From Terriglobales bacterium (lineage in GTDB: Bacteria; Acidobacteriota; Terriglobia; Terriglobales; Acidobacteriaceae), in the NCBI GenBank assembly GCA_035937135.1, contig DASYVL010000047.1, positions 1 to 46,604 of the forward strand: a stretch of DNA of 46,604 bases, read 5' to 3'. The notes under the pieces are model-generated. The model was not told the DNA's origin. It saw nothing but the letters and a program-made list of their open reading frames with translations, and ran no database searches. Shown one piece after another: positions 33,890 to 43,276 of this stretch (position 1 is its first letter; each line of letters begins with the position of its first letter). Made by a program: the position numbers and the translations under genes.

Positions 33890-35524
33890 TCACGCCTTTA
33901 TGTTTCGCTTGCCCCAGCCGCCGCCGCCGGGCGACTCGATGCGCACTCGCTCGCCCACCCGTAGCCGCGCGCTTGTCTTGCCGGGCAACTCTTCGACCGA
34001 GCCGTCGCGGCGAATGATCTGCGTCCTTCCGGGCGCGCCCGCATCGCCGCCGGCCAGGCCGTAGGGCCCGCGGGAGCGGCGGTCGGCGAGCACCGCGATG
34101 TCGGAGTCGGTCAACACTTCGATCTCGCGCACGATGCCGTCGCCGCCGCGGAATCTTCCAGGGCCGCCCGAGCCCGGGCGCAGGGAGTAGCGCGTCACAC
34201 GGAAGGGATAGGCGTGCTCGAGCGCCTCCGCCGGCGTGTTGAGCGAGTTGGTCATGTGGGTGTGGATGCCGGAGACGCCGTCCTTGGTAGGCCGCGCACC
34301 CATGCCGCCGGCGATGGTCTCGTAGTATGCGAAGGGTTCGCCGCTCCTGGGATCGATCCCTCCCAGGGTGAGGTTGTTCATCGTCCCTGACGAGCCGGCC
34401 GGGATGCGCTGCGGAATGGCCTGGGCCAGCGCGCGCAGCAGGACGTCCACGATGCGCTGCGAGGTCTCTACGTTTCCTCCGGCCACCGCGGCCGGCGGCC
34501 GCGCGTTCACTATGCTGCCCTCGGGCGCAATCACGCGGATGGGTCGCATCAGCCCCGCGGTCGCCGGTACGTCCTCCGCCAGCAGGCAGCGAAAGACGTA
34601 GAAGCACGCCGAGTAAGTGATGGCCTCCACTGCGTTGACGCTGCCCGCCACCTGCGGGTCGCTGCCGGTGAAGTCCACGGTGACGACGGGACCGCGGCCG
34701 AGGGCGGCCGCGCCACGTGGCCCGGTATGGAACGCGATGCTGACGGCGATGCGGATGGGGCGGTCCGTGATGCCGTCGTCGTCCAGAAAATCCTCGGCAC
34801 GGAAGGTTCCGCGTGGGACATGGGCGAGGAAGGCGCGCATCACCTCCTCAGAGTAATCAAGCAGCGCACTCATCGCGCGGCGGACGCGCGGTCGGCCGTA
34901 GCGCACGCACACCTCGCGCAGGCGCGTGGCCCCGGTGTGGCAGGCGGCGAGCTGCGCCCCCAAGTCGCCTTCGCGCTCGCGCGGCGTGCGCACGTTGGCC
35001 AGTAGCAGCGCCAGCACGTCTTCGTCCGTCTTGCCCCTGCGCACCAGTTTCACCGGCGGGATGCGGACGCCTTCCTGGTAGATCTCGCGGCACGGGCCCA
35101 TGGAACCGGCGTAGGCGCCGCCGACATCGGCGTGGTGCGCGCGGGAGGCTACGTAGAAGTCGGGCGCGCGGCCGAGGGCGGCCGCGCCATGTGGTCTTGT
35201 GTTGTACACCGGCGCCACCAGCGTGATGTCCGGCAAGTGGGTGCCGCCGCAAAAGGGATCGTTGAGCATGGCGACGTCCCCGGGCGCGAGCGGAAAGGCC
35301 CGGATGGCGGCGCGCACCGACATGGGCATGGAGCCCAAGTGCACGGGCATGTGATCCCCCATGGCCACCACCTCGCCGCGCGCGTCGAACACCGCGCAGG
35401 AGTAGTCGCGCCGCTCTTTGATGTTGGGGGAGAAGGCGGTGCGGCGCAGCGCCGCGCCCATCTCTTCCGCGATGGAGTGGAAGAGGTTCTTGAAAACCTC
35501 GAGCTCGATGGGATCGCGCCGCAC
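33890..35524 (-). CDS. hyuB: N-methylhydantoinase B / 5-oxoprolinase beta-like subunit
   Basis: HyuB-type subunit of an ATP-dependent hydrolase of hydantoin or 5-oxoproline rings. It has 544 residues, with family segments RRDYSCAVFDARGEVVAMGDHMPVHLGSMP (here split: VFDARGEVVAMGDH), NDPFCGGTHLPDITLV, FYVASRAHHADVGG, VDFTGSDPQVAGSVNA and a Gly-rich end (ESPGGGGWGKR). The usual partner HyuA, which carries the ATPase-like fold, is absent from the window. Two in-frame hairpin-repeat insertions encode PHGAAALGRAP (about 111-121) and PRGAAALGRGP (about 269-279). The GTG start is supported by GGAGG about 12 nt upstream. It is the first gene of the operon with tdh and kbl. Confidence 0.88.
   Translation of the reverse strand: MRRDPIELEVFKNLFHSIAEEMGAALRRTAFSPNIKERRDYSCAVFDARGEVVAMGDHMPVHLGSMPMSVRAAIRAFPLAPGDVAMLNDPFCGGTHLPDITLVAPVYNTRPHGAAALGRAPDFYVASRAHHADVGGAYAGSMGPCREIYQEGVRIPPVKLVRRGKTDEDVLALLLANVRTPREREGDLGAQLAACHTGATRLREVCVRYGRPRVRRAMSALLDYSEEVMRAFLAHVPRGTFRAEDFLDDDGITDRPIRIAVSIAFHTGPRGAAALGRGPVVTVDFTGSDPQVAGSVNAVEAITYSACFYVFRCLLAEDVPATAGLMRPIRVIAPEGSIVNARPPAAVAGGNVETSQRIVDVLLRALAQAIPQRIPAGSSGTMNNLTLGGIDPRSGEPFAYYETIAGGMGARPTKDGVSGIHTHMTNSLNTPAEALEHAYPFRVTRYSLRPGSGGPGRFRGGDGIVREIEVLTDSDIAVLADRRSRGPYGLAGGDAGAPGRTQIIRRDGSVEELPGKTSARLRVGERVRIESPGGGGWGKRNIKA
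34693..34712. repeat. hairpin repeat, copy D (in frame inside hyuB)
   Basis: CGCGGCCG (34693-34700) and CGGCCGCG (34705-34712) pair around AGGG, the complement of the usual YCCT loop. On the coding strand it adds GAAALGR to HyuB. Confidence 0.7.
35166..35187. repeat. hairpin repeat, copy E (in frame inside hyuB)
   Basis: GCGCGGCCG (35166-35174) and CGGCCGCGC (35179-35187) form a 9-bp stem around AGGG. It is read in the same frame as copy D, encoding the same GAAALGR. Confidence 0.7.
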
Positions 35525-35736
35525 CTTCCCTGTCCGCCTCCGAAAGAGTCTACGTCATGGCGATTCCCCTCCCCGGTCTCCGGCGCAGGCGAGCCGGCGG
35601 CCCGCCCGCGGCATCTTTTTTTGTTGACATGCTTCGGCTTCTGCCCCAACATCTAGTGCAGTACCTCATACCCACACCACAGATTGGGCCATGAGGGCAA
35701 ATCGGGCCCCAAACTTCTAGGGAGGAAAGCCAACTG

Positions 35737-35775
35737 ATGAAGAAAAAGAAAAAGGCAAAGAAGAAAAAGAGGTAA
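35737..35775 (+). CDS. 12-codon poly-lysine micro-ORF
   Basis: ATG followed by Lys codons, one Ala and a final Arg gives MKKKKKAKKKKR, then TAA. GGAGG (35721-35725) lies 11 nt upstream in AGGGAGGAAAG. Two hairpin terminators follow within 90 nt. No other ORF on this strand explains the sequence; the opposite strand reads as a Phe run. It may encode a very basic nucleic-acid-binding peptide, or be a leader whose translation is monitored. Function is unknown and chance is possible because of the A-rich stretch. Confidence 0.4.
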   Translation: MKKKKKAKKKKR

Positions 35776-35780
35776 CAACA

Positions 35781-35802
35781 GCGAGGCCAAAACCTCGCTT
35801 CT
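35781..35802 (+). terminator. hairpin after the micro-ORF
   Basis: GCGAGG (35781-35786) pairs with CCTCGC (35793-35798) around CCAAAA, then TTCT. It is a modest terminator just 5 nt after the micro-ORF stop. Confidence 0.5.
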
Positions 35803-35827
35803 AAAAAGGGAGCCTGCAACAGGGTTC

Positions 35828-35865
35828 GAGGGCCGCCGCGCAAGCGCTGGCCCTCTCTCATTTTC
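35828..35865 (+). terminator. strong hairpin terminator upstream of merR
   Basis: GAGGGCC (35828-35834) pairs with GGCCCTC (35849-35855). An inner CGC-GCAA-GCG stem closes with a GNRA tetraloop. TCTCATTTTC follows. Confidence 0.65.
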
Positions 35866-35882
35866 GTCGCTGTACTCTGCGG

Positions 35883-35911
35883 TTGACGCTGGGGCGCACG
35901 CGCCGTAGTAT
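35883..35911 (+). promoter_or_regulatory. sigma70-like promoter for merR
   Basis: TTGACG (35883-35888), a 17-nt spacer, and TAGTAT (35906-35911), 21 nt before the ATG at 35933. The leader would be only about 15 nt with no Shine-Dalgarno. Confidence 0.65.
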
Positions 35912-35932: not shown

Positions 35933-36337
35933 ATGCCCACGCGAACCAAGTCCCGCTCCAGCCGGTCGACGCCCTCCGAAGTCGTGGTTCCCGACAAGCT
36001 CTATTTCCGCATCGGCGAAGTGTCGCGGCTATGCCGTCTGCCGGCCTACGTGTTGCGCTTCTGGGAGACAGAGTTTCCCCAGCTCCGGCCCACCAAGAGC
36101 AGCACCGGGCAGCGGATGTACCGCCGGCGCGATGTGGAGAGCGTCCTGGTGATCAAGCGGCTGCTGTACGAGGAAGGCTTCACCATCGCCGGGGCGCGCC
36201 AGCACTTGCGGGCGGAGGTCAAGGCCGGCAAGGAGCAGCCCGCGCTTCCCTTTTCGCGCAAGGCTTCCCAGGAAGGGCTGCTCGCCGTCCGCCACGGTTT
36301 GAAAGAGATTCTGGAGATCCTCTCCGCGCGGCACTAA
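35933..36337 (+). CDS. MerR-family transcriptional regulator
   Basis: A 134-residue DNA-binding protein. The winged helix-turn-helix spans about residues 24-90: [20 protein letters not shown] (recognition part) then [20 protein letters not shown] and [11 protein letters not shown]. The C-terminal tail is a short helix with no metal-binding Cys, so it is not a metal-sensing MerR; short MerR proteins of this build occur in deltaproteobacteria and acidobacteria. The target genes are unknown. A basic, Ser/Arg-rich N-terminal extension of about 20 residues precedes the domain. Confidence 0.88.
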
Positions 36338-42121: not shown

Positions 42122-43276
42122 CTACCGAGTCTTGCGTCGGAATAGCAGCACGATGGCAACGCCCCAACCGAGCAACGCGAACCAGAATGCGGGCTGCGAA
42201 ACCAACCTGATGACGGTCCCTGGCGGTGGAGCCGGGGCCACGGCGACGGTCTTGGTGGTCTGCTGCTCCGGCGGATGGGTCTTCACTGCGACTTCCGGCG
42301 TAGGCGCTCTGGCACGCCGTGGAACACTAACGGGCTTGATCTCTGGCGGCGGCAATTGGAGATTGCCGGCCGCCCCGGTGGAAAGCGACCGCGCATTCTC
42401 GGCACTCTGTACGGCAGCGCGCGCGAACTGCACCACGTCCTGGCCTTTTGGATTCGTCTGATAAGCAGCTTCGGCCTTGGCCAGGAAAGATTTCGCCTGC
42501 GCCAGTCCCGCACGTGTGTATTCCTCTTCCTTGAGGAGGGTCCCCGTAGGACGGTTCACCAGGATCCCGGACTCAGACGCCAACTCCACCGCTTTTCGCG
42601 CTTGTAACAGCTGGTTCGGCACTGGCTCGAGCGGGCTTCCCACCGCCGAGTCATAAACGTTGTAGTGGGTGAAGTAGAACAGCTTCCCTGGGATGACGAG
42701 TGCCTTGCTCTCGGGGGGCATGCTGTTCGGCAGTCCTCTGCTGTACATCACCACCAAGCGGCTCGGGTCGATGACCGCATAATTCGGTTCGGCCGTCACC
42801 ATCAACCAGAAGGTCTGGAGCGGTGTGGTCAGTTTCGTGTTGTTCGCGCGGTTGCCGCTGAAGGCGACTTCGCCGAGGTTCGAAGCCTTGCCATCTGCTG
42901 ATACTGCCCAAACTACGTAGGTCAGGAAGTCCTTGCCGAAGGTATGCGCCGGTCGCAATCCGCTCACCGCGCTGCCGTTGATCTCGACCTCCACAAGTCC
43001 CGGTCGTTTCCCGATGTTCAGGCCCAGGAATCCGGGCCGGCTTCCAACCTTCATGTCAATCTGTGCTTCTGGCGCGAGCTTGGTGCCGCGCATCTGGACA
43101 GTGATCGAGCCGGCACGTTGCTGGTAACTCAGAATCTGGCCGTTCGGCTCGTTAATCTCAACGACCTTGAGCTGCAGCGGTTTCACCGCATGAGGAGCGT
43201 CCGCACCAGGGGAGAACGGAGGCGCTGCCAGGCACGACAACAGGAAGATGGATCGAATGCGCTGCGAAAGAGTCAA
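42122..43276 (-). CDS. secreted membrane-anchored protein, unknown
   Basis: A 384-residue protein with an N-terminal signal peptide (about 5-20, IFLLSCLAAPPFSPG), a beta-rich domain (about 35-225), a helical segment rich in Ala/Glu/Lys (about 225-305, TPLARAGLAQAKSFLAKAEAA type), a Pro/Lys/Thr-rich linker, and a C-terminal membrane helix (about 360-380) followed by RRKTR. It would sit in the periplasm anchored at its C-terminus. The start is TTG at 43276, without a strong ribosome-binding site. It lies upstream of the GGDEF gene in the same operon and could be its sensor partner. No family is recognised. Confidence 0.65.
   Translation of the reverse strand: MTLSQRIRSIFLLSCLAAPPFSPGADAPHAVKPLQLKVVEINEPNGQILSYQQRAGSITVQMRGTKLAPEAQIDMKVGSRPGFLGLNIGKRPGLVEVEINGSAVSGLRPAHTFGKDFLTYVVWAVSADGKASNLGEVAFSGNRANNTKLTTPLQTFWLMVTAEPNYAVIDPSRLVVMYSRGLPNSMPPESKALVIPGKLFYFTHYNVYDSAVGSPLEPVPNQLLQARKAVELASESGILVNRPTGTLLKEEEYTRAGLAQAKSFLAKAEAAYQTNPKGQDVVQFARAAVQSAENARSLSTGAAGNLQLPPPEIKPVSVPRRARAPTPEVAVKTHPPEQQTTKTVAVAPAPPPGTVIRLVSQPAFWFALLGWGVAIVLLFRRKTR

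Follow-up and report, generated by a model that had tools for sequence, protein, structure and literature searches.

A conserved lysine-rich micro-gene of Acidobacteriaceae with a predicted NrdR-type operator, probably encoding a minimal nucleic-acid-binding polycation

The window analysed in this study, i.e. the whole 46,604-nucleotide stretch of DNA of a Terriglobales bacterium, contains a 12-codon open reading frame which, as judged by comparison with related genomes, is shown to be a real micro-gene: the gene itself, its basic composition (kept through synonymous DNA change) and its place are conserved. It belongs to a family found at two kinds of loci, designated type A and type B, and the window copy is of type B. 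In our best reading, to which we assign a probability of about 0.6, positions 35624-35855 form a one-gene unit, which encodes a minimal polycation resembling a histone H1 tail and is predicted to be controlled by NrdR, in response to dNTPs. The most likely role of the product is that of a nucleic-acid-binding polycation; it is probably a protein of minimal size that binds DNA or RNA.

The micro-gene is located on the plus strand (positions 35737-35775; ATG at 35737, TAA at 35773-35775) and encodes MKKKKKAKKKKR, a Lys/Ala-rich, low-complexity basic chain in which all 12 of the 12 residues are M, K, A or R. Its Shine-Dalgarno sequence, AGGGAGG (35719-35725, plus strand), is placed 11 nt 5′ of the ATG, and a GGAGG-type site occupies the same position in relatives. 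Inspection of the sequence thus confirmed both the ORF and the ribosome-binding site recognised in a preliminary description of this DNA. Further upstream, on the same strand, are (i) a sequence matching a -35 element, TTGACA, of the type B promoter (35624-35629), (ii) an NrdR-type box, CCCCAACATCTAGTGC (35644-35659), which covers the -10 region and fits the core CNANATNTNG exactly, and (iii) a second, degenerate box, ACACCACAGATTGGGC (35674-35689), located 30 bp past the first and carrying one mismatch to the core.

Two plus-strand hairpins follow the ORF. Hairpin 1 (AGCGAGG..CCTCGCT; 35780-35799) has a folding energy of -11.5 kcal/mol (z -5.4), and many type B relatives carry a GCGAG..CTCGC hairpin at this position. 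Hairpin 2 (35828-35855; -23.3 kcal/mol, z -1.9) has a weak U-tract with the tail CATTTTCG, and occupies the site where relatives carry a terminator. Both had been described as terminators, which holds only in part for this copy; the two hairpins do fold, but the first is devoid of a U-run, the tail of the second is weak, and neither a terminator scan of the region nor our own criterion indicated a terminator in the window. By the same criterion, a terminator is present in all 72 type A loci scored and in 66 of the 85 type B loci; these figures are purely descriptive, since the stem search keeps the best-scoring placement out of many and was not compared with a null.

The gene for hydantoinase B (hyuB; 33890-35524, minus strand; Pfam Hydantoinase_B, 4.8e-211) is the divergent upstream neighbour, and a MerR-family gene (35933-36337, plus strand; Pfam MerR_1, 3e-20) lies downstream as a separate unit, to which the promoter scan attributes a promoter-like site at 35883-35911. 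The flanking genes are therefore those named in the preliminary description, on the same strands, and its proposal of a small independent transcription unit is borne out by the promoter-like site of merR and by the terminators placed behind the ORF in relatives. Elsewhere in the window, ARAGORN predicted a tRNA-Asn (gtt) at 42807-42898, whose 92 nt are rather long for a tRNA-Asn.

Of 120 genomes of the same family, 64 match the pattern ATGNNNNNNAARAARAARGCNNNNAARAAR (M-x-x-KKK-A-x-KK), and 28 of these contain at least two copies, whereas the reversed pattern, used as a control, gave no match in the same 120 genomes. As many genomes are incomplete, presence counts are lower bounds. Nearly all of the 93 distinct matches (90) are ORFs of 12-19 aa, the other three being longer. 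Genes of this kind also occur in one further family belonging to the class; pattern matches occur in 49 of 299 genomes of the class and 35 of 396 of the phylum, some of these being longer, probably unrelated proteins. One distantly related family of the phylum has a pair of Lys-rich starts that fit the pattern and are separated by approximately 240 bp (G652:C22:13815 and 14058); these are perhaps tandem micro-genes. The peptides are mostly 11-26 aa long and Lys/Ala-rich, often with a C-terminal His or Arg.

A DNA search with positions 35640-35870 as the query revealed a relative that is 76% identical over 83 nt spanning the Shine-Dalgarno sequence, the ORF and the first hairpin; other relatives encode peptides of 13-18 aa, e.g. 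MPMKKKAKKKKKH, MATKKKAKKKKKH and MPVKKKAAKKAAKKKAKK. Scanning of named genomes for the 13-aa form yielded 88 stretches, and the 80 that were listed all originate from Acidobacteriota (Acidobacteriaceae, Terriglobia and Ca. Sulfotelmatobacter among them), nearly all being metagenome assemblies. No report of a lysine-rich micro-protein or small-ORF family in Acidobacteria was found among the matches listed for the open-access PMC literature.

After removal of duplicates, 162 short ORFs were retained, while nine longer pattern-matched ORFs (28-284 aa) were set aside. The first classification left 9 of the 162 unassigned and placed the type A loci L256 and L257 in type B. Eight rows were reassigned by eye (L256, L257 and L301 to type A; L115, L227, L234, L253 and L305 to type B) and L140, L143 and L188 were omitted from both classes, to give 159 classified loci, comprised of 85 of type B and 74 of type A.

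The preliminary description proposed a check of conservation across relatives, which recovered Lys-rich micro-ORFs with synonymous changes: Lys codons alternate between AAA and AAG, and all four Ala codons are used across the loci. At codons not forced by the search, pN/pS is approximately 0.35 (94 loci outside the His-ended scan; a pairwise estimate that ignores kinship). Searches blind to the ORF, the most stringent test applied here, led to genes of the same kind. The type A promoter alone has matches in 54 of 120 genomes, and a Lys-rich micro-ORF was present at the right distance in all 29 scanned promoter sites (30 were fetched, with L329 falling outside the scanned stretch), including forms that the ORF pattern does not cover, i.e. 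MATKKGGKKKGGKKKH, MAKKAKKAKKKKH and MATKKAAKKAVKKAVKKATKKTAKKK. The search for TTGACA plus a box gave matches in 28 of 120 genomes, with a micro-ORF behind 26 of the 28 type B sites and something else behind L361 and L369. On the evidence of these loci, the conserved trait is a short lysine-rich chain and not an exact sequence. The site in L369 (position 1501 onwards; G126:C97) is a TTGACA and NrdR-like box preceding an ORF of non-Lys-rich composition, which may be a further target of NrdR.

The genome under study also contains a type A paralogue, MAKKKKAKKKKKH (contig C28). Type A genes have a strong sigma-70-like promoter without boxes (TTGACWTC..TATACAT), and the ORF is followed by a clean terminator, GGGGACGC..GCGTCCCC and a T-run. 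Type A and type B leaders differ. Between promoter and ORF, the type A leader forms two hairpins with compensatory changes, e.g. GCAAC/GTTGC versus GCAGT/ACTGC; the alignment of these leaders, in which L052 is misplaced and L102 over-long, was excluded as a basis for counts. The leader hairpins (e.g. of L136 and L224) could stabilise the RNA or serve in autoregulation. In the nearer relatives of the window the product is mostly 12-19 aa long, whereas other genera of the family have forms of 20-24 aa, e.g. MATKKAAKKAPAKKAAKKATKK; genus group g35, some of whose genomes are single contigs, has a form of 20-22 aa, in most cases next to thiolase.

Each type has its own neighbourhood. Type A lies between thiolase and helicase/RmuC genes: thiolase was detected near 55 of 74 loci, helicase near 55 of 74, and RmuC near 21 or 19, depending on the query. 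Thiolase is present in 16 of 19 inspected loci of family f1, and one of the remaining three, L391, has a 90-aa ORF. A convergent gene follows type A in six loci that were inspected. RmuC adjoins a type A gene in a different family of the class (f5) as well, so the type A locus is probably old. Type B is usually located upstream of merR, with MerR near 58 and hyuB near 37 of the 85 loci; both were found near 0 of 74 type A loci. The preliminary description contained neither the paralogous type A locus and the fixed neighbourhoods, nor the NrdR-type operator and the weakness of the second hairpin as a terminator.

Type B is strongly predicted, from the arrangement of its promoter, to be under NrdR control. 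When the type B loci are aligned on the promoter, two palindromic boxes are visible 30 bp apart (31 bp in f5), the first of them over the -10 region. Of the 82 loci assigned to type B at that stage, a set that includes L256 and L257, later moved to type A, 80 have TTGAC at a distance of 19-21 nt 5′ of box 1. The core CNANATNTNG was written as what we take to be the NrdR consensus. Box pairs with at most two mismatches and a spacing of 30-32 occur in 75 of 85 type B loci versus 1 of 74 type A loci; shuffled sequences gave an average of 0.75 of 85, and off-phase spacings 5 and 10 of 85. Across the type B loci, box 2 is often degenerate.

The same kind of box pair precedes ribonucleotide reductase (RNR) genes in genomes carrying micro-genes: with at most one mismatch it was found upstream of 11 of 30 RNR loci and nowhere in the downstream sequence, of which approximately twice as much was searched; with at most two mismatches it was found at 18 of the 30 loci. 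The remaining 12 of the 30 RNR loci have no box pair even at two mismatches. The spacing parallels that of type B, i.e. 30 in f1 and 31 in f5, with the exception of the f1 locus L194, where it is 31. Scanning with a matrix built from the type B boxes agreed with the core-based RNR result. The genome under study contains nrdR; directly upstream of its own RNR gene no clear box pair was observed. A CAAGATCTTG palindrome occurs shortly before this gene, within the preceding ORF (G000:C175, L163), as a single site with no clear partner.

NrdR binds paired 16-bp palindromes with spacers of 14-17 bp (PMC12051234), and the Streptomyces NrdR boxes have conserved C/G pairs 31 bp apart and overlap the start site (PMC9110341). 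Type B resembles this regulon in its two 16-bp boxes, spaced 30-31 bp apart over the promoter, and in the box pairs that precede some RNR genes of relatives. The difference lies in the target: the published accounts consulted list RNR genes, often nrdR itself, and topA, whereas here it is a micro-protein gene. Nothing relevant on NrdR in Acidobacteria was found among the matches listed for the open-access PMC literature.

Histone H1-like proteins rich in Lys, Ala and Pro are known in bacteria, e.g. the chlamydial Hc1 and Hc2. The micro-protein shares with bacterial H1-like proteins, such as AlgP and PhaF with their C-terminal tails, a Lys/Ala-rich, low-complexity and strongly basic chain. It differs from them in being only 11-26 residues long, with no other domain, and in its two dedicated genes, which have separate promoters and of which type B carries an NrdR-type operator. 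DNA is bound by H1-like tails and, in vitro, by short peptides of KPAA repeats (PMC9239181). Elsewhere in the class and phylum we identified Lys/Ala/Pro H1-tail-like proteins, ranging from 25 to over 100 aa, with similar starts and, in one family, the same GGGAGAAT site. None of the tested neighbours of the micro-gene was found near these longer genes. At the type A locus the micro-gene family shades into the forms of 20-24 aa, which share that neighbourhood, and in composition it is similar to the longer H1-like proteins of the phylum. In family f6 of the class (L372, L374, L376-L380), H1-like proteins of 50 to more than 100 aa are preceded by a type A-like GGGAGAAT ribosome-binding site and are possibly long cousins.

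The basic composition alone fits binding to DNA, RNA, polyphosphate or the ribosome alike, and the partner may be a polyanion other than DNA, namely polyphosphate granules or ribosomal RNA; in the latter case the peptide would be an accessory ribosomal protein of very small size, and basic ribosomal proteins that small do exist. AlgP, itself H1-like, acts on polyphosphate granules (PMC9239181). We nevertheless consider a target of this kind rather unlikely, as type B has an NrdR-type operator, which suggests a link with DNA synthesis, and ribosomal or polyphosphate genes were not seen beside the inspected loci of either type. It is improbable that the RNA is the working molecule, i.e. a small regulatory RNA with the ORF as a by-product or second function. 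The compensatory changes that retain both type A leader hairpins, and the short monocistronic transcript unit, are in keeping with such an RNA; yet Lys codons are kept through synonymous change and length variation, which an RNA role does not need, the type A and type B leaders differ, and the window has no Rfam match at the gathering score. Membership of a known RNA family was also considered and rejected: an Rfam search by E-value of eight loci gave five weak matches, all below the gathering scores.

The preliminary description suggested that the lysine run might stall ribosomes and act as a leader; the gene under its control would then be expected downstream, as with an attenuator. Ribosomes can be slowed by runs of lysine, and like leader peptides the micro-gene has a short ORF with a Shine-Dalgarno sequence, followed by hairpins. 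Unlike them, it shares its transcript with no regulated gene: merR has its own promoter-like site, type A faces a convergent gene in the six loci that were inspected, and a terminator-like hairpin follows the ORF in most relatives (by the descriptive counts given above). Peptide length (11-26 aa) and Ala/Gly/Ser/Thr content vary as well, and we regard this function as very improbable. Cationic peptides can be antimicrobial, as also suggested earlier for this one, but a secreted antimicrobial or signalling peptide is scarcely credible here: exporter, modifying enzyme and immunity genes were not seen recurring at either locus, the adjoining genes have housekeeping roles, and type B carries an NrdR-type operator in its promoter. 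A run of 12 codons is not significant by itself; the origin of the ORF by chance is nonetheless ruled out by the matches in 64 of 120 genomes against none for the reversed pattern, by the synonymous change, and by the recovery from promoters alone.

As NrdR is predicted to tie type B to the dNTP supply, the simplest interpretation is a polycation that coats nucleic acid and is linked with DNA synthesis. In the mechanism we propose, NrdR loaded with dATP/ATP would occupy both boxes, which cover the -10 region and the start, and repress type B; when dATP is low, the type B peptide would be made, as ribonucleotide reductase is. Type A would be made from its strong promoter without boxes. The peptide would act as a free polycation, a minimal H1-type tail, and neutralise or coat nucleic acid; its most likely target would be the nucleoid or DNA under replication. 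Genomes often carry two copies, and we tentatively suggest, as a possibility below even odds, that a constitutive type A and an NrdR-governed type B allow the cell to meter free chromosomal polycation by its dNTP pool.

A 12-codon frame skipped by gene finders thus belongs to a gene family that is conserved in soil bacteria and has promoters of its own; by implication, other very small genes for polycations may have escaped notice elsewhere. The family offers a minimal test case for a bare lysine tail as a nucleoid or RNA factor. If the proposed control is correct, the predicted NrdR regulon reaches past the DNA-precursor enzymes and topoisomerase. If the proposed function is also correct, few dedicated chromatin proteins would be smaller than these peptides, and nucleotide sensing would be directly linked to the state of the nucleoid.
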